From the NCBI GenBank assembly GCA_913777295.1, contig CAJYRU010000283.1:1-42912 (forward strand): a DNA stretch of 42,912 nt, in the 5' to 3' direction. The stretch is from an uncultured Sphingomonas sp. (GTDB lineage Bacteria > Pseudomonadota > Alphaproteobacteria > Sphingomonadales > Sphingomonadaceae). Shown here in pieces: positions 15,181 through 28,252 of the stretch. Under the pieces are notes generated by a model. That model saw only the letters and a list, made by a program, of their open reading frames with translations. It did no database searches and was not told where the DNA came from. The position numbers and the translations under genes are program-made. Position 1 is the stretch's first letter. Each line of letters opens with the position of its first letter.

Positions 15181-15905
15181 GCGGCCCGCCGGATCGGAAT
15201 GTCGCCGGTCGAGAACGGGCGGGTTCCCCAGGCCGCGCGATCGATCGCGGTCAGGCCATTGGACATGGCCTGGGACTGCACCTCCTGGAGGTTCGTCACG
15301 ATCCGGCGCGTGATGCCCTTCGTCGCCCGGACGATCGCGTCGACCAGATCGTCCGCGACCGAGACGCGCGGACAGTAATAGTCGCGCAGCAGGCAGGCAT
15401 CGGTCAGGCTCGACGGCTGGGCGGGCGTGGCGACCAGAATGCGGTTGTCGAACCGTTCCCAGTCCTTGAGCTTGGCGGGAAGCGCCTCCTCCCCGATCAG
15501 CATGACGGGCACGCCGCCATGGTCGTGGATGTCGCGGATGATCTCGACGTTCTTGCGATGGACGACGTAATCCGTCTCGTCGACGATCACCGGCTGCGGC
15601 GCGACCTGGAGCTGTTCGATCACCTGGTCCAGCAGCTCGTCGGCGGTGCGGCCCATGCGCGTGATGCCCAGGTCCATGGCGATCGCGCGGAGCATGGACT
15701 TTTGCGTCCAGGTCGAGCGGGCCACGACATAGGCGGCGTTGAAGCGGGCCGCGATCGTCGCGGCGGCGACCGACTTGCCATAGCCGGACGGGCCATAGAG
15801 CAGGCCGATACGCGGGCTTCCCTGCGGCGCTTCCTGACAGCGCATCATGGTCGCCAGACCCAGGCGCATGTTGGTGAGCTGCGCGGGTTCATGGATATTG
15901 GTCAA
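15177..15905 (-). CDS. Mu B-like transposition ATPase (AAA)
   Basis: 242 aa; Walker A GPSGYGKS; Walker B VIVDETDYV; directly downstream of MuA. Confidence 0.9.
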   Translation of the reverse strand: MTNIHEPAQLTNMRLGLATMMRCQEAPQGSPRIGLLYGPSGYGKSVAAATIAARFNAAYVVARSTWTQKSMLRAIAMDLGITRMGRTADELLDQVIEQLQVAPQPVIVDETDYVVHRKNVEIIRDIHDHGGVPVMLIGEEALPAKLKDWERFDNRILVATPAQPSSLTDACLLRDYYCPRVSVADDLVDAIVRATKGITRRIVTNLQEVQSQAMSNGLTAIDRAAWGTRPFSTGDIPIRRAA

Positions 15906-17713
15906 AGCGAACTCTCCTTGAGGGACGGGGTGGCGGCGGGCGCGTTGCGCCGGGCCGTGAAATCGGCGGTCAGCAATTTGTGAGCGCGATATTCGGTGGA
16001 CTGGGTGAAGACGTGGGCACGCGACAGCGCGTCGGGATCGACCGGCAATCCGGCGGCATGGTCCGCCAGGACGCGGTCGGCCTCGGCCATGCGGTCCTCG
16101 AAACTTCGGGGTGCGCTGGCGACCGTGCGCGGATAGCGGGCCTCCGCCGCCTCGATCGCGCGGTCGCTGGGCAGCGTGGCGGGCACGTCGGCGATGCTGG
16201 CGATCGCGGGCGTCTGATGCGGGGCGGTGCGGACCGGCAGCGTGACCAGCTTGCCCGCTTCCTCGGCATCGCGGCGCAGGACGGCGTTGCGGGCATCCTC
16301 GAAAGAGAACCGCCGCTTCTTGTCACGCAGCTCGGCGCGCTGCGCGTTCATCAGCGCGGCTTGCTGGCGCCGGGCCTCGACCGCGAAGTCGCGGTCCGAC
16401 AGGCCGGAGCGCTCGGCATTGACCGCCGTTCCGATGTAACGCTGGTCCTCGTCGAAGACGAACAGCGCGCCCAGATCGTCCTCGTCGCGGCGCAAGATGA
16501 CCGTGCGGCCGACATAGGCGGCAAGCGGCGCGGTCCAGTAGCGGCCCTTTTTCCAGGTAATGCCGCGCTTCGTGACCTGCGCCTGTCCGACCAGCGCCGA
16601 CAGCAGCAGCTTGAGGGTGCCTTCGTCCGGCGCGCCCCGCGCGGCACGCGGCGAATTGGTCCAGCGCGACATGGGCGACGCGCCCAGGCTGGAATGGGCG
16701 CGGACGTGGTACACGCCGTCGAGCCAGTTGGTGACGATCGCCTGCAGCTCGTCGGCCGACAGTTCGGGCACGATGACGGGGCGCTTGGTTTCCTTGCGGG
16801 CGACGGCGCGCAGCCGCGACGCCTCGGCGACATTGTGACCGATATAGCCGCCCAGCAGCTCGGCCCGCTCGCGGGTGAAGGTGCCGAACATCCGCTCGAC
16901 GAACGGCTTCTTGTCGCCCGATGCGGGTGGCACCGGGTCATGCACGATGCCCAGCAGCTCGCAAGCGGTGCGCACCGTGGCGTTGATATAGCCCGAGCCC
17001 TGGTCGGTGCGCAGCACCTCGGGCATCACGCCCCAGGCGGTCATCGCGGCGACCAGCGTCCGGCGGACCGACTGGGCAGACTCGCTGTCGACGACCAGAT
17101 AGAAGGTCCGACGCGACCAGACATCGACGATGCCCAGGATGGACTTGCGCCCCTCCTTGGTCATCACGTCGGCCTTGGTGGTGTCGATCTCCCAAATCTG
17201 ATGCGCATAGGACACGCCCGCGTCGGCGCGGCCGAGGGCGACCCGGTATTTGCTCTTGAACAGGTCCGGGTCGCGGAAGCTGGCGAGCAGCGCGGGTTTG
17301 GATGCCTCCAGCTTGGCAATGAAGCGGCGGACCGTGTGGACGGACGGCAGCGGCGCGAAGCGGCTGTGCATCAGCTCCAGGATCGCGGTCGCGGACAGGT
17401 CGCGCTCGGCCAGCCACGCCTCGACGGCGTCGGCGGCGTCGGGATTGCGGGTGAAGAAGTCGGAGCCCTTCGGCCGACCGCGCTGTCCGCCGACCGGCTG
17501 GGCAGCGGTGCGGTCGGCATAATCCCGGCGCGCCGCCTCGGGCAGGTCTGCCACCGCGAAAAGTCGGCCGCCGCCCCGGCCTTGGCGGTCGATCCACCGC
17601 CATTCGCCGCGCTTGGCACGCATGGCGACGGCGTTGCGGTCGGTCGGCAGGCCTTCCAGCTCCAGCGACGCGATTTCCAATGCCGACAGGTATTCACGGC
17701 CGAGGAGGGTCAC
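15902..17713 (-). CDS. Mu A-like DDE transposase
   Basis: 603 aa; IWEIDTTKAD (D), VLRTDQGSGYIN (D), KPFVERMFGTFTRE (E); Mu-type C-terminal domain. Confidence 0.93.
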   Translation of the reverse strand: MTLLGREYLSALEIASLELEGLPTDRNAVAMRAKRGEWRWIDRQGRGGGRLFAVADLPEAARRDYADRTAAQPVGGQRGRPKGSDFFTRNPDAADAVEAWLAERDLSATAILELMHSRFAPLPSVHTVRRFIAKLEASKPALLASFRDPDLFKSKYRVALGRADAGVSYAHQIWEIDTTKADVMTKEGRKSILGIVDVWSRRTFYLVVDSESAQSVRRTLVAAMTAWGVMPEVLRTDQGSGYINATVRTACELLGIVHDPVPPASGDKKPFVERMFGTFTRERAELLGGYIGHNVAEASRLRAVARKETKRPVIVPELSADELQAIVTNWLDGVYHVRAHSSLGASPMSRWTNSPRAARGAPDEGTLKLLLSALVGQAQVTKRGITWKKGRYWTAPLAAYVGRTVILRRDEDDLGALFVFDEDQRYIGTAVNAERSGLSDRDFAVEARRQQAALMNAQRAELRDKKRRFSFEDARNAVLRRDAEEAGKLVTLPVRTAPHQTPAIASIADVPATLPSDRAIEAAEARYPRTVASAPRSFEDRMAEADRVLADHAAGLPVDPDALSRAHVFTQSTEYRAHKLLTADFTARRNAPAATPSLKESSL

Positions 17714-18012
17714 TGGCGGGTCTCCGGCTGGGACACGCTGGGTGGCTTGCGAAAGCGGGCCGTACTCCGGTAGTTATCGACAGGTTGGGGCCGCTTCCGC
17801 GTGCCGTCCTCATTGTAACGGGTAGGCCAAATGTCCTTCGGCTCTTTGTCCATTGCTGCCGCGATCGCCTCTTCGGCAGCGCGACGCGGCACGACTAGCG
17901 CCCGCGCCAAGGCCCGCTCCTTGATCCCCGCATCGCGAGCCACTGACGCCAGCGTTCGACCGCCACGGCGCACAGCAGCTTTGATGTCTTCAGGATGCCA
18001 ATCTTGCAGCAT
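17710..18012 (-). CDS. Ner-like winged helix/HTH regulator
   Basis: 100 aa; DWHPEDIKAAVRRGGRTLASVARDAGIKERALARALVVPRRAAEEAIAAAMDKEPKDIWPTRY is a Ner/Nlp signature. Confidence 0.85.
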   Translation of the reverse strand: MLQDWHPEDIKAAVRRGGRTLASVARDAGIKERALARALVVPRRAAEEAIAAAMDKEPKDIWPTRYNEDGTRKRPQPVDNYRSTARFRKPPSVSQPETRQ

Positions 18013-18103: not shown

Positions 18104-18808
18104 ATGCCCTGGTCTAAGGAAGACGGCGCACGCCTCCAGGAGCTGCTGGCCGAGCATGGTCAGAGAGAATTAGCGACCGCCGCCGGTGTCTCGGTTGCAA
18201 CATGGCAGCGGACGATCGGTGGTGACCGTGCGCCGACGGTGGAAGAAATTGCTGGCCTTCGGGACCTCTTGCCGCCCGACGACATGTGGCGGCTGATCCT
18301 CGCTACATTCGAGGGGGTGATGAGGGAGCCGTGGACCGAGTTCGTGGCTCTAATGGAGGGGGCTATGGCATCGGAGCGGCCCGCGCCCGAGGTCGTCCAA
18401 GTGCCGGTGCATGATGTCCAGGTCGCGGCAGGCGCAGGGAAGATCGCCGACCGGCTACCGCCGCCGCTCTACCATTGGTCATTTTCGCGGGAATGGATGG
18501 AAGCCAACCTGCGCGGCGTTGGTCGTCTGGTCATGGTCGAGGTGTCTGGCTCCAGCCAGGAGCCCGAGTTGTCGAACGGTGATCTTGTCGCCGTCGACCT
18601 CGACCAGTCGCGGCTGCGTGAAGGACTGTTCGTCGTACGTCTGGATGACGTGCTGGTCATCAAGCACATCCAAATGGATGGTCGGACGGTGCGCCTGGTA
18701 AGCCGCAATCCACTGTACGATCCGGTCGAAATCGATTTGCACGAGCCCGGTATCGATGATCGTTTCGAGGTTGTTGGCCGTGCTGTCTGGGCGAGCAAGA
18801 TGCTATGA
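18104..18808 (+). CDS. S24/LexA-like prophage repressor (c-type)
   Basis: 234 aa; N-terminal HTH; VSGSSQEPELSNGDLVAVD (Ser) and VLVIKHIQ (Lys) of S24 peptidases. Confidence 0.85.
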   Translation: MPWSKEDGARLQELLAEHGQRELATAAGVSVATWQRTIGGDRAPTVEEIAGLRDLLPPDDMWRLILATFEGVMREPWTEFVALMEGAMASERPAPEVVQVPVHDVQVAAGAGKIADRLPPPLYHWSFSREWMEANLRGVGRLVMVEVSGSSQEPELSNGDLVAVDLDQSRLREGLFVVRLDDVLVIKHIQMDGRTVRLVSRNPLYDPVEIDLHEPGIDDRFEVVGRAVWASKML

Positions 18809-19311
18809 GATTGCTCCTGATCGTGGCGGTCCTGGTCGGGCTTGGCGGCGGTGCCTATGCTTGGGCGCGCGAACCGAGCGATGGGCCGGATCTTGCCGCC
18901 TGCGAATTGCACGTCCGTGCAAATCTGCCCTCGGGCGTGGTGTATCGTCGGATCGATGTCGCCCGCGAAGATACCCCGCCGCTTTCATTTGCCGCTTTCC
19001 GACAGCAGGCGGGGGCATCTGCATCCGTCCACGGCCTGGGCGAGGCAGAGGATTTGCAGAACCAGGTCGACGAGTATTGGGCAAAATCCGGTAAGCTCGC
19101 ACTCCGGACGATGGTCTTGACCTATCGGTTCGGCGGCGAGACCCAGCCCCGGAAGCAGGTCTGCGCATTCAGGCTGATCGAGGGCGAACTGGCGACGTCG
19201 CCAACCCTGATGAGCAATGCGACGACCGATACGCCCAAAGCTCTGGATGTCTTGGCGGACCTCCAGCACCGCCGCCGCCAGTCCCGGCCGAAGCATTCGT
19301 GCTGTCTCTGA
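18805..19311 (+). CDS. Hypothetical exported/membrane-anchored protein
   Basis: 168 aa; N-terminal hydrophobic segment MRLLLIVAVLVGLGGGAYAWA; overlaps repressor stop. Confidence 0.5.
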   Translation: MRLLLIVAVLVGLGGGAYAWAREPSDGPDLAACELHVRANLPSGVVYRRIDVAREDTPPLSFAAFRQQAGASASVHGLGEAEDLQNQVDEYWAKSGKLALRTMVLTYRFGGETQPRKQVCAFRLIEGELATSPTLMSNATTDTPKALDVLADLQHRRRQSRPKHSCCL

Positions 19312-19670
19312 TCGCCGCGATCGCCGCCCAGGCGCTGACCTGCACGCCGGTCGCCGTCGACGGCGACACGCTGCGCTGCGGCCGGGAACGGATACGCCTG
19401 CTGGCGATCGATGCGCCGGAGATGCCCGGCCATTGTCGTCGGGGGCGCAGGTGCGTCACGGGCGATCCCTTCGCCAGTCGCGACTCGCTGGCCGCTGCCC
19501 TGCGCCCGCCCTTTACGATCCGGCGTGTCGGCTTCGATCATTATGGCCGCACTTTGGCGGCGGTCGCCGGGGCGCGGGGCGATCTGTCATGCTGGCAATT
19601 GCAGGCCCGGCGTGCACGATATCGGGCCGACTGGGACAATGGCCATATGATCGGCGACCGATGTCGATAG
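19299..19670 (+). CDS. Thermonuclease (SNase-like) family protein, probably exported
   Basis: 123 aa; VAVDGDTLRC, RIRLLAIDAPE, FDHYGRTLA motifs; hydrophobic N-terminus. Confidence 0.75.
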   Translation: MLSLIAAIAAQALTCTPVAVDGDTLRCGRERIRLLAIDAPEMPGHCRRGRRCVTGDPFASRDSLAAALRPPFTIRRVGFDHYGRTLAAVAGARGDLSCWQLQARRARYRADWDNGHMIGDRCR

Positions 19671-20128
19671 AGGCCAATCGCATTCTGATCGCGATTGAAG
19701 CTGCGGTCTTCTCCAACATCATGGCGATCCATATCGTGCCGCCTGTCTGGGCTCGGGCATGCGGCCTGTTTGGTAGCTAGTTGACGCGTTCGCTCTGGTG
19801 GGGGCTAGGACGTGTTTCCAGGGCGTTTCGATGTCATCCCCGGCAGAACGAGCGCGTCACTATTCACCGGGCGTGTGCGGGGCGTACACGACCTGTTTGT
19901 TTTGGACTGTGTATGCCATCTGCACAACCTCGTGCGAAATGCCCGGCTAATTTGTGAGGGCGGAGCCATGTGGCGGGATTTGTCACGTGGGCAGCAGCGT
20001 AAGGTATTGTCCATGTACCGGAGCGATCGGAATAATAGCGCTCCCGTATAGCAAATATACACTGGCAAACTGCAACGCTACCCGGCAATATCCTGCAATA
20101 CCGGATGGCTTTGAAGCGAGAGGCCGCA

Positions 20129-21286
20129 ATGTCGGATGTCAACGAGATCGAAGATCGGTACGCACCCGATTCTATAATTCGAGAATTAAGCAATCCTAGC
20201 CGCCGCACCGAAGCCATGTACCATTTCACAAAAAATGAAATGGAGGACGTCCAATATCTTATAGATATGGTAAATAATGCACTGCATGAAATTATCGCAG
20301 CTCTTGGAATAAAGGCATCTATAAAGTTTGCATTTGTTGCTACGGTAAAATCTCCATTCAAGTCGTTAAAATACGATCAAAATGACTATATCATAATTGT
20401 TGGGTGGAAGTACCTATACTGGCTTCACGTTCTATGTGTGAGATTGCAGCACGCCCCGGTAATGCATGCCTATCTGGGCTTGGATCAGCACACCGAATTT
20501 CCAGATTATCGCGGGAAATATCTCATTGATATTTGCCGGGATATCATGAGTGATGAAGAACGTTTCACAGAGGCAACGTCAAAATTATGCTGTGGGTTAT
20601 CAATCCAGACCGCTATAGCTCTAATTATAAACCACGAAGTTGCACATATTGCCCATGGCCATGTTGATTTTATAAATTCAAGTGATTTTTCTCAATTTAA
20701 AGACTGCTCCGAATCGGAAAATCTCACGTTTAGAACGCTGGAGATGGATGCCGATTCATCATCTATTACTACTACATTTTCCATTATAGGAAGAAAAATA
20801 GGAAATGCCGTTGAGTCTGCGCCTTTGAGCAAAAAGGCATATCTTTCTGCTTACTACGCTAGAAGAATGATATTTGGAATATACGTATCTATAATATTTC
20901 AAGACTCAATAGCTAACTCTCATAATCCTATCAAGCATCCGCCGGGATATGCTAGGTTCCTTATTTTTTACTTATTGTTGAAGAATGATATTCAATCCCA
21001 AGAGGAATACTTTTGGGATTTGCCTGATAAGCTTCGGGAGAAAATGGCTGAAACATTCACAGAGCTTAGCGGAGAATTAGGCTGTCTGGGGTATCCTATG
21101 ATGAGCAATGCGCTTGCAAGTGGTGACAGTGATGAATTCACCCCGACTTATGATCCGTTCGTTGCTGACTTCATGTGGTCAATACACCTCGAACCCTTGA
21201 ACGGCAGATGGGCGCGCATCAGGCCCTTTTTGGTCCCACGTTTGAAAGGTGGCCTCTTAGCCCCGCCTTCTACGGACCCGTACTGA
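20129..21286 (+). CDS. Putative zinc metallopeptidase (HExxH) moron
   Basis: ATG at 20129 preceded by GAGAGG; NHEVAHIAHGH with downstream LEMDADSSS; markedly AT-rich relative to surroundings. Confidence 0.6.
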   Translation: MSDVNEIEDRYAPDSIIRELSNPSRRTEAMYHFTKNEMEDVQYLIDMVNNALHEIIAALGIKASIKFAFVATVKSPFKSLKYDQNDYIIIVGWKYLYWLHVLCVRLQHAPVMHAYLGLDQHTEFPDYRGKYLIDICRDIMSDEERFTEATSKLCCGLSIQTAIALIINHEVAHIAHGHVDFINSSDFSQFKDCSESENLTFRTLEMDADSSSITTTFSIIGRKIGNAVESAPLSKKAYLSAYYARRMIFGIYVSIIFQDSIANSHNPIKHPPGYARFLIFYLLLKNDIQSQEEYFWDLPDKLREKMAETFTELSGELGCLGYPMMSNALASGDSDEFTPTYDPFVADFMWSIHLEPLNGRWARIRPFLVPRLKGGLLAPPSTDPY

Positions 21287-22302: not shown

Positions 22303-23292
22303 ATGCGCCAGCGCAGGCCGACTATGCTGCCGCCGCCGCCTAATCCGGCGGGCATGGCACCGCCCCCCATCAAAATCCTGCGCCCCGGCACCTTCACCGA
22401 TATTCACGGGACGAAGGTGACGTTCACGCAGTCCGACCTGGATCAGGTCATCGCGTCCTATGACCGGGAGAGCGACCCCGCGCCGATCGTCGTCGGCCAT
22501 CCCAAGATCGATGCGCCCGCTTTTGGCTGGATCGGCTCACTGGCGATGGAGAACGGCGTCCTGGTCGCACACCCGTCCGAGGTCGCACCCGCCTTCGCGG
22601 AGGCGGTCGAGGCGGGCCATTACCGCAAGATTTCCCCCCAGCTCTATCCGCCGTCGAGCCCCAATAATCCCAAGCCCGGTAGCTGGTATCTCCAGCATGT
22701 CGGCTTTCTGGGCGGGGCGGCTCCGGCGATCAAAGGGCTGGGAACGGTCGCCTTTTCCGATGCCGCGATCGGCGTCGTGACGCTTTCCATCGAAGAGGAC
22801 TCCATGAGCACCGAAGACACCAGCACCCCGGACGCGGTCGCGTTCGCGGAGCGCGAAGCCGCGCTTTCCGAGCGGGAAGCCGCCCTCCAGGCGCGCGAGG
22901 CGGACCAGGCGAAGCGCGACCAGGACGCCCGCCACGCCACCCATGTCGCCTTTGCCGAGGGGCTGATTGCCGATGCGAAGCTGGCCCCGGCGGGCAAGGA
23001 CAAGGTGGTCGGCCTGCTCGACCTGCTCGATGCCAGCCAGCCGGTCGCTTTCGGCGAAGGCGACGCCGCGCAGATGACGCCCGCCGCCGCCTTCCGGTCG
23101 CTGTTCGACGGCGCGCAGCCGGTCGTCGCCCTGGGCGAGGCCGCACCCGCCGACAAGAAGCCCGGCGACGCGCCCAAGCCGACCGACATCGCCCGCCGCG
23201 CCCAGGCCTATGCCGAGAAGATGCGGAAGGAAGGCAAGCCGATCACGACGCAGGCGGCGGTCCGCCACGTCACCGCCAATCCCGACGCCTGA
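22303..23292 (+). CDS. Phage protease/scaffold (Mu gpI-like)
   Basis: 329 aa (true start may be 22324 or 22354); FTDIHGTKVTFTQSDLDQVIASYD...PIVVGHPKIDAPAFGWIGSL typical of Mu I-like proteases; charged scaffold C-terminus. Confidence 0.82.
   Translation: MRQRRPTMLPPPPNPAGMAPPPIKILRPGTFTDIHGTKVTFTQSDLDQVIASYDRESDPAPIVVGHPKIDAPAFGWIGSLAMENGVLVAHPSEVAPAFAEAVEAGHYRKISPQLYPPSSPNNPKPGSWYLQHVGFLGGAAPAIKGLGTVAFSDAAIGVVTLSIEEDSMSTEDTSTPDAVAFAEREAALSEREAALQAREADQAKRDQDARHATHVAFAEGLIADAKLAPAGKDKVVGLLDLLDASQPVAFGEGDAAQMTPAAAFRSLFDGAQPVVALGEAAPADKKPGDAPKPTDIARRAQAYAEKMRKEGKPITTQAAVRHVTANPDA
22804..23292 (+). CDS. Nested scaffold protein from internal in-frame start
   Basis: In-frame ATG at 22804 preceded by AGAGGA (22794-22799); encodes the coiled-coil/scaffold part MSTEDTSTPDAVAFAEREAALSEREAALQAREADQ. 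Confidence 0.55.
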   Translation: MSTEDTSTPDAVAFAEREAALSEREAALQAREADQAKRDQDARHATHVAFAEGLIADAKLAPAGKDKVVGLLDLLDASQPVAFGEGDAAQMTPAAAFRSLFDGAQPVVALGEAAPADKKPGDAPKPTDIARRAQAYAEKMRKEGKPITTQAAVRHVTANPDA

Positions 23293-23764: not shown

Positions 23765-24697
23765 ATGGCCCAGTCGCCTTATCCCATCGATCCCGATCTG
23801 ACCGCGATCGCCATCGCCTATAAGAATCAGGGCTATATCGCCGACCTCGTCATCCCGCGCATCACGGTCGGAAAACAGGCCTTCACGTTCATGCAATATG
23901 GCATGGACACGTTCTTCAACACTCCCGAGACGCTGATTGGTCGCCGGGGCCAGGCCAATCAAGTCACGATGGACGGCGTGGAAGTGCCCGACACGACCGA
24001 GGACCATGGCTTGGAGTCCCCGGTCCCCCAGGCCGATGTCGACAATGCCGACGAGCGGTACGACCCGCTCGGCAATGCGGCGGCGTTGACCTCCGAGCTG
24101 ATCGAAATCCGCCGGGAAATTCGTGCGGCCGGGATCATCTTCAATCCTGCCACCTATGACCCGGCGCTGCGCGTCACGCTGGCAACGACCGACGTGCTGG
24201 ACAACCCCAACACGGACACCGTCACCCTCATCACGGACGCGCTCGACAAGCCGCTGATGCGCCCGAACCAAATGGTGTTTGGTCAGCGCGGCTGGACGAA
24301 GTTCCGGCGCAACGCGGGCGTCATCAAGGCCATTCGCGGTCAGAATGGCGGCGGCCTGGTCACCAAGCAGGAGGTGGCCGAGCTTTTCGAAGTCAATGAA
24401 GTCGTCGTCGGTCAGGCCTTCGGCAACCAGGCGCGCAAAGGTCAGGCTGCGCAGATGTCGCGCCTGTGGGGCAATCACTTGGCGCTGACCTACAAGGCTC
24501 CGGTCCTGTCGCGTGAGACGCCGACCTTCGCGGGCACCTTTACCTGGGGCGAGCGTGTCGCGTCCCAGCGCGAGCTTAAGCCCGGCGAAATGGGCCTGCG
24601 CGGCGGCACCGCGGTCTTGGTCGGTGAGAGCGTGCGGGAACGCGTGATCGCATCCCAGGCGGGCTTCTTCTTCGAGAACGCCTTCTCGCAGGGCTGA
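23765..24697 (+). CDS. Major capsid protein
   Basis: 310 aa; YKNQGYIADLVIPRITVGKQAFTFMQYGMDTFF..; position after scaffold. Confidence 0.82.
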   Translation: MAQSPYPIDPDLTAIAIAYKNQGYIADLVIPRITVGKQAFTFMQYGMDTFFNTPETLIGRRGQANQVTMDGVEVPDTTEDHGLESPVPQADVDNADERYDPLGNAAALTSELIEIRREIRAAGIIFNPATYDPALRVTLATTDVLDNPNTDTVTLITDALDKPLMRPNQMVFGQRGWTKFRRNAGVIKAIRGQNGGGLVTKQEVAELFEVNEVVVGQAFGNQARKGQAAQMSRLWGNHLALTYKAPVLSRETPTFAGTFTWGERVASQRELKPGEMGLRGGTAVLVGESVRERVIASQAGFFFENAFSQG

Positions 24698-26878: not shown

Positions 26879-26897
26879 GCGTTATTTGAGCGTTATT
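26876..26897. repeat. 11-bp perfect tandem direct repeat TGAGCGTTATT x2
   Basis: 26876-26886 and 26887-26897; spans the stop of the upstream gene and the stop of the antisense moron. Confidence 0.8.
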
Positions 26898-28029
26898 AGG
26901 TGTCGAATAGCTTGAGTATGTTTTGCGCGCGTTCTGTAAAAAACGATATACCTGCCGCACTTTTTCTTATCGCTGGACCGTAATTCTGGTCTTTCATAAG
27001 AGCATTGAAAACACGTTCAATTTCTGCGTCCGTCATGCCCGTATACATTCCACCCCAGCTCCCCTTGATGCTGTCGGCGGTCATGCCAGCTGCTCGCAAA
27101 AGCGCGTAATGGTAACATTGACTCCAAGCAAAATTTTCTCGAGACTCAACCAATGTTCCGATATGTGTGATCGCTTGCTTTTCGAGAAAGTAGGAAGAAG
27201 TTTCAAAATCGTAATAGTCTGACTCATACGTGTTGAGGTCGTTACCATGGGGTACGCCGGATATTGTATCTCGGTCGTACTTTGATAGTAAGAGATAGAG
27301 CGCTCGAGGAGCCTTCTGCGCGAAAAGCATGAGGACGGCGGCCTTGCCGGGGGCGACTTCGTCACGCTCCGGATAATGCGCAAGTTCTCGCAAGTTTACA
27401 AGTAATGCATCACGCGCTTGTTGCTTTTGATCGGCCGTTACCGGAGCACCAAAATAGTTGTTCTGTATAGCGGTGCCTGGGCCGCTGGTGACAGGCCCGT
27501 TTGGTGCATTGATTGTGGCTGGAGCGGTAGAATTAATCTGCTGCCCCGAGTTGTTGCCAGTATTGGAAATGGCTGGGGTGGACGCAGGCACCGCTGATGC
27601 CTGAACCTTCTTGAAAACGACCAACGGACGGCTCGGCTTAGGGATGAGGCGGCCGCTGGACGGGTCAGCCAATGGAAGCCGGTTTACCATAGCCGCGAAG
27701 ACCGTTTGCTGACAATTAGACCGGGCAGCCAGCGCTGCACCTACGTCGCGTTGCAAAGGTCCACTCCAGCGTGCGTAAGACCCTCCAGCGCCGAGCTTGC
27801 CGCCGAAAGCGACGAAACGGGATATGAGCTTGTCCGGCGTAAAACTGACCACCGCTGATCCGTTGGCATTCATGGTGTAACCCACGGTCTGGGGAGCGGT
27901 GCAGGTCTGCTTGGCAATTTCCGACACGGCTCGGAAATTTTCCAGTTGTGCTTTGCTATATCCGGCCTCTTTCGCTGTACCGGGTGACGCCAGCGCTATG
28001 GCTGCTAGAAACAGCGAATTGACCACCAT
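26896..28029 (-). CDS. Exported protein, antisense moron in the tail operon
   Basis: Start ATG 28029 with GGGGAA upstream; signal peptide MVVNSLFLAAIALASPGTAKEA; N/G-rich linker NTGNNSGQQINSTAPATINAPNGPVTSGPGTAIQNNYFG; opposite strand to neighbours. Confidence 0.65.
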   Translation of the reverse strand: MVVNSLFLAAIALASPGTAKEAGYSKAQLENFRAVSEIAKQTCTAPQTVGYTMNANGSAVVSFTPDKLISRFVAFGGKLGAGGSYARWSGPLQRDVGAALAARSNCQQTVFAAMVNRLPLADPSSGRLIPKPSRPLVVFKKVQASAVPASTPAISNTGNNSGQQINSTAPATINAPNGPVTSGPGTAIQNNYFGAPVTADQKQQARDALLVNLRELAHYPERDEVAPGKAAVLMLFAQKAPRALYLLLSKYDRDTISGVPHGNDLNTYESDYYDFETSSYFLEKQAITHIGTLVESRENFAWSQCYHYALLRAAGMTADSIKGSWGGMYTGMTDAEIERVFNALMKDQNYGPAIRKSAAGISFFTERAQNILKLFDT

Positions 28030-28252
28030 GTTTTCCCCTGTGATTTGCCCCAATGCCCGAAACATAGGTGGCTAATCGTTGAAACCAATGGTTGGCGCTT
28101 TATCAGCGCCAGGGGAGGCTTCGGGATCGCTCGACGGCGCGATTAGGAAAGATGGCTTAGAAATCCCCAAGGGGTGCACCAGTGCCCCCCGCGCGCGCGC
28201 GCGAAATCCGGTCTGACTGTCGGCACAATTCCCGCAAAAGGACCGCTGACCG

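Follow-up and report, generated by a model that had tools for sequence, protein, structure and literature searches.

An open reading frame carried by a Mu-like phage of an uncultured Sphingomonas sp. probably encodes a zinc peptidase related to the Lit and M48 peptidases, belonging to a family that the searched libraries do not name. The window, meaning the whole stretch of 42,912 nucleotides that was analysed, is one whole contig, and judged from its sequence the gene is clearly a moron of the Mu-like phage located there (Table 1). We put at about even the chance that the peptidase is made in the lysogen and acts against other phages, excluding them through cleavage of a host protein.

Table 1. 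Coordinates of the peptidase gene, its motifs and the neighbouring phage features in the window.
Feature	Position	Strand	Evidence
MuA	15902-17713	minus	
Ner-like protein, HTH_35	17710-18012	minus	
S24/CI-like phage repressor	18104-18808	plus	PF00717 E 3e-15; phrog_4 E 1.5e-30
SNase-like small protein, 123 aa; left border of cargo slot	19299-19670	plus	phrog_18798; tblastn matches in two sister prophages
Spacer of 458 bp between repressor operon and peptidase gene	19671-20128	plus	sequence
Terminator-like hairpin in spacer	19872-19890	plus	weak; site counts not clearly above shuffles
Promoter-like site in spacer	20007-20036	plus	weak; site counts not clearly above shuffles
GAGAGG ribosome-binding site, 5 nt upstream of ATG 20129	20118-20123	plus	sequence
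Lit/M48-like zinc peptidase gene, 385 aa	20129-21286	plus	ORF and translation; family HMM 100.5 bits; GC 0.42 versus 0.67
HExxH zinc-binding motif HEVAH, residues 169-173	20633-20647	plus	H, E and H invariant in ten family members; aligned with Lit H160/E161/H164
LEMDAD, residues 204-209	20738-20755	plus	T203, E205, D207, A208 and D209 invariant
HPPGYAR, residues 270-276	20936-20956	plus	P271 and R276 invariant; hhalign aligns Lit HPAAYER
Family-specific C-terminal tract WARIRPFLVP, residues 361-370	21209-21238	plus	W361 nearly invariant, L368 invariant; no counterpart in Lit alignment
Head maturation protease; right border of cargo slot	22303-23292	plus	phrog_976 E 3.6e-86
Major head protein	23765-24697		

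The frame is intact whether it is read from its first ATG (20105-21286) or from the ATG at 20129 (20129-21286, 385 codons). As the original prediction had it, the 385-codon form has a ribosome-binding site of its own; the in-frame ATG at 20105 lacks a site of the GAGAGG type. The description of the gene as AT-rich within a GC-rich phage also proves accurate. Specifically, its GC content is 0.419 and its GC3 is 0.415, compared with a mean GC content of 0.676 (standard deviation 0.036, minimum 0.535) for other 1158-bp segments of the contig and GC3 values of approximately 0.77-0.91 for the remaining called genes. Neither a strong transmembrane segment nor a signal peptide was found in the 385-aa protein.

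The HEVAH, LEMDAD and HPPGYAR motifs, the last with HPP at residues 270-272, stand in the order of a gluzincin peptidase. A gluzincin-type layout had initially been read from HExxH and LEMDAD in this one protein, and its motifs are now seen to be invariant or nearly so across ten homologues. The family alignment, which comprises ten sequences including two that are C-terminal parts only, contains the invariant positions H169, E170, H173, G177, H178, T203, E205, D207, A208, D209, P271, R276 and L368; of these, E205 is predicted to be the third residue that binds the zinc. Chance occurrence of an HExxH motif is excluded by the existence of distant homologues with these invariant residues and by a family HMM that, although built without the window protein, gives it 100.5 bits. 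Assignment of the protein to the zinc peptidases as a biochemical class is well supported by these sequence comparisons.

The same comparisons bear on the notion that the gene is a degraded or non-functional passenger. The searches found no close homologue from which purifying selection could be gauged; moreover, a frameshifted homologue in Bradyrhizobium indicates that decay does occur in the family. Nevertheless, the window gene has a full-length open frame and keeps all invariant catalytic residues at approximately 20% identity to its relatives, and we regard this explanation as highly improbable.

Searching phages, plasmids, viral contigs and 401 genomes of the order with the window sequence alone recovered the source genome only. 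The first distant relative, the frameshifted gene of Bradyrhizobium sp. 149, came from a phylum-wide scan. Pattern searches based on alignments yielded L012 (two tandem copies), L013, L015, L019, L020, L021, L026 and L029, later searches yielded L038, L042 and L043, and subfamily scans of viral contigs gave no further new members. Approximately 13 distant homologues, mostly with 20-30% identity, share the gluzincin residues and a C-terminal W..hR..L.P tract. Weak matches such as L003-L010, which are short and mostly interrupted by internal stops, were not counted in the family, and its alignment omits L022 and L037.

Viral contigs and a phage genome account for most of the homologues, and a plasmid and bacterial genomes for the rest. 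Viral sequences were screened much more thoroughly than genomes, such that the phage share is inflated and gives no estimate of frequency. Five loci (L012, L019, L020, L026 and L029) lie within viral contigs, L013 follows a tail-fibre gene at the end of a viral contig, L038 adjoins a Peptidase_S74 tail-fibre gene, and the homologue of Microcystis phage Mwe-Yong1 (QXN67987.1) adjoins a phage integrase. The L021 member is found in an alphaproteobacterial genome and the L043 member on a Rhizobium plasmid; together with L015, these are bacterial replicons on which the gene stands outside any evident prophage. Given these three members, the role of the family need not be specific to phages. No partner gene conserved across the homologue loci is evident.

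None of the searched libraries names the peptidase family, and every match of the window protein is below threshold (Pfam M48, E 0.17; PADLOC Lit, E 0.0044; NCBIfam Lit, E 0.005), those in the PADLOC defence-gene library included. The gene had been put forward as undescribed, which holds at the level of the family in these libraries but not for every member, because the Mwe-Yong1 homologue already carries the annotation 'peptidase family M48'. The Mwe-Yong1 protein is a full-length member, although it is encoded by a different phage at a different position and is described by annotation only.

Three peptidase families had been named for profile comparison, and of these U49 (Lit) gives the strongest match, M48 a weaker one (39%) and ImmA/M78 a weak match to one of ten members. 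The Lit-family set comprised eight proteins, including E. coli Lit from e14, a protein encoded in a genome of the host family, and plasmid-encoded proteins with a Lit-family annotation. When the profiles of the two families are compared, hhalign returns a probability of 97.6%, an E value of 3.4e-12 and a score of 93.6, over an alignment that spans HExxH, E..AD and HPP..R. Shuffling all columns of the Lit alignment reduces the score to at most 19.1, whereas shuffling everything except the HExxH block gives a mean of 56.7 and at most 61.3. Since 93.6 exceeds even this latter maximum, the similarity to Lit extends beyond HExxH. The family HMM likewise scores seven of the eight Lit-type proteins at 38-14 bits, above all four E. 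coli M48 proteins (12-4 bits); the eighth, from Gluconobacter plasmid L048, falls among the M48 scores at 9.1 bits.

The likeness to Lit is limited to approximately 105 aligned columns. Compared with E. coli Lit alone, the window protein gives a BLASTP E value of 0.001 over 116 aa, and the PADLOC Lit match covers only 24 residues. The curated cut-offs for Lit are not reached (16.1 versus 274 bits for NCBIfam), and Pfam PF10463 gives no match. These results argue for real but remote homology to Lit in the catalytic core of a protein that is not a curated Lit, and they make it probable, but not certain, that the family is nearest to the Lit (U49) peptidases, above M48. Lit had been cited at the outset as a precedent for function and not as evidence of homology. 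The precedent stands, but the reservation about homology was too cautious for the catalytic core.

Lit (phage exclusion protein and cell death peptidase of the E. coli prophage e14; PF10463 Peptidase_U49, NF007238, PADLOC Lit) resembles the window protein in having an HExxH, E..AD, HP..xR core in the same order, and both are encoded by single prophage-borne genes of low GC content that have no evident partner. The two proteins differ in the spacing from HExxH to the glutamate, which is 36 residues in the window protein and 21 in Lit. In addition, the window protein is approximately 90 aa longer, and the C-terminal W..hR..L.P tract occurs only in its family and not in Lit.

M48 peptidases (HtpX, BepA, LoiP and YcaL) also have the motif order HExxH, E..AD, HP..R of the window protein, but they differ from it with regard to membrane association, as the window protein lacks their membrane anchor or signal peptide and the membrane helices of HtpX. 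The hhalign probability of 39% (score 38.5) was obtained with a thin profile of four diverse E. coli M48 sequences, and the alignment is confined to the surroundings of HExxH. Similarly, the match to Peptidase_M48 (PF01435) does not reach the Pfam gathering cut-off (12.2 versus 20.3 bits, E 0.17). ImmA/Peptidase_M78 was considered as a family assignment and ranked lower: only one of ten members matches, with an E value of 0.12, and the window contains no adjacent ImmR-like partner.

Two AlphaFold models built from ten-sequence alignments have mean pLDDT values of 53 and 64. The better of these (A13; residues 62-385, mean pLDDT 64, pTM 0.71) has a beta hairpin followed by two consecutive long helices, the first with HExxH and the second with the glutamate, a predicted layout compatible with a zincin. 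Foldseek searches with these models of low to moderate confidence gave no PDB match at E <= 0.001 and no significant viral match. Sequence and profile searches of the PDB with the window protein returned only chance-level matches (htpX, E 0.67), and no solved structure of a Lit-like protein is detectable by sequence search.

M48-type peptidases serve quality control, and the main rival to an anti-phage role builds on this function. The window protein could be a lysogenic-conversion protease that confers some other benefit on the host, in stress, proteostasis or regulation. The sub-threshold Pfam M48 match would fit such a protein, as would those homologues whose replicon is a plasmid or a genome showing no evident prophage. 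However, the family resembles the Lit profile more than the E. coli M48 proteins and lacks membrane helices of the HtpX type, and its distribution is patchy, with the source genome as the only carrier among 401 genomes of the order. We therefore consider a host-benefit protease possible but rather less than probable.

Profile searches of Pfam and PHROG establish the phage context. The contig carries a Mu-like transposable phage in which MuA, a Ner-like protein and the S24 repressor lie on one side of the peptidase gene and the head genes on the other. This agrees with the initial placement of the gene between the lysogeny genes and the structural arm, as represented by MuA/Ner/S24 repressor and by the head protease and major head protein, respectively. 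The repressor, a 168-aa ORF and the SNase-like ORF overlap end to end over 18104-19670, and the spacer separates them from the peptidase gene. A terminator 3′ of the peptidase gene was looked for and none was found. The foreign composition and the 458-bp spacer suggest that the gene forms a separate transcription unit.

The comparison set consisted of three related Mu-like prophages found in this host family (L066, L067 and L068; head-protease identities of 47-50%), and tblastn finds no match to the peptidase gene in any of them. The prophage of genome G224 (L067) has an SNase-like gene, approximately 1 kb of normal GC content and then the head protease. The order in G1167 (L068) is MuA, Ner, repressor, SNase-like gene, cargo and head protease, and G081 (L066) has other genes in the slot. 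The SNase-like genes of L067 and L068 match PF00565 SNase, marginally. Thus, with the gene absent or the slot differently filled in its sister prophages, the slot is an exchangeable cargo site, and the original designation of the gene as a moron is upheld. Accessory regions of Pseudomonas Mu-like phages agree with a cargo slot of this kind, and the same source provides the definition of a moron (PMC4378225).

In L068, the cargo gene (L068:11766-12689, GC 0.485) encodes a serine protease of the ClpP-like SDH type (PF01972, E 2.8e-21). Like the window gene, it is low-GC protease cargo flanked by the SNase-like and head protease genes, but the two enzymes are unrelated in family and catalytic type. 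The serine protease gene, which has no PADLOC match, is itself a candidate exclusion or conversion gene.

These arrangements also speak to the idea that the peptidase acts in the lytic cycle, in head maturation or host takeover. Although the gene is on the same strand as the downstream structural genes, the phage has a separate head maturation protease, the three related prophages lack the gene, and the probable separation of its transcription unit, given the composition and spacer, does not fit a lytic-cycle protease. A function of this type is very unlikely.

Proximity to the repressor raises another possibility, namely that the protein serves as the toxin in a toxin-antitoxin or ImmA/ImmR-like pair, or that it controls induction by acting as a protease on the phage repressor. 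One family member weakly matches Peptidase_M78, a small gene with the look of a helix-turn-helix protein overlaps the start of the first homologue in L012, and the L015 homologue lies between two HipBA pairs. However, no partner gene is kept across loci, the small gene of L012 has no Pfam match, and in the window neither an antitoxin-like gene abutting the peptidase gene nor an adjacent paired HTH gene is present. Furthermore, an S24 domain for self-cleavage is already part of the repressor, and ImmA proteins are much shorter than the window protein. On balance a toxin or repressor protease is unlikely.

Lit is one of the classic cases of a prophage-encoded protease whose action kills infected cells, and we hypothesize that phage exclusion by the window peptidase could follow a related course. 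The protein would be a soluble gluzincin-type zinc endopeptidase of a Lit/M48-related family, brought in as foreign cargo of the Mu-like phage, expressed in the lysogen from the gene's own promoter and kept latent. Upon infection by another phage, a product of that phage would switch the peptidase on. The active enzyme would then cleave a host protein, such that the infected cell no longer supports the invader, as occurs when Lit acts on EF-Tu. Specifically, Lit is a latent protease that cuts EF-Tu between Gly59 and Ile60 upon synthesis of the Gol region of the T4 head protein (PMC3014915; PMC9712102). The Mu-like phage Fc02 has exclusion genes in the region of its repressor (PMC9936078). Just as e14 lit adjoins intE, the homologues described above occupy cargo positions beside integrase or tail-fibre genes or on viral contigs. 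Against a defence role, no known defence gene was identified next to the peptidase gene within the window, the resemblance to Lit is limited in extent, and the models gave no significant fold match.

If the peptidase does exclude phages, a distinct family on phages of Alphaproteobacteria, a cyanobacterial phage isolate and Bacteroidota-like viral contigs would broaden protease-based phage exclusion, and several independent proteins would become available for mapping trigger and substrate. More speculatively, and with considerable doubt, the family might represent new phage-carried latent suicide peptidases whose trigger and substrate are unlike those of Lit, and the slot might be dedicated to exchanging protease-based exclusion genes, of metallo type here and of SDH type in the sister prophage.

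Several other loci have unusual arrangements. The two tandem peptidase copies of L012 (L012:7279-9779) are 53% identical and stand behind the small overlapping gene, on a viral contig with the appearance of a Bacteroidota phage. The two HipBA-like gene pairs that flank the peptidase gene in a Phenylobacterium MAG (L015:3832-10425) are near-identical, which suggests an insertion or duplication. On the Rhizobium plasmid (L043), a thermonuclease-family gene lies approximately 3.5 kb away from the peptidase homologue. In another alphaproteobacterium (L022:5-2514), a 510-aa HExxH protein that is a weak relative is paired with a TPR protein, possibly as a two-gene variant. Lit-family genes on Agrobacterium plasmids (L045 and L046) have in common a hypothetical gene that overlaps them upstream and a divergent DUF6088 gene, a hint of a partner. 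Finally, the window has a second low-GC stretch (0.52-0.58) around a 389-aa ORF at 26896-28065 (minus), which lies on the strand opposite the surrounding structural genes, has a signal-peptide-like start and looks like another moron.
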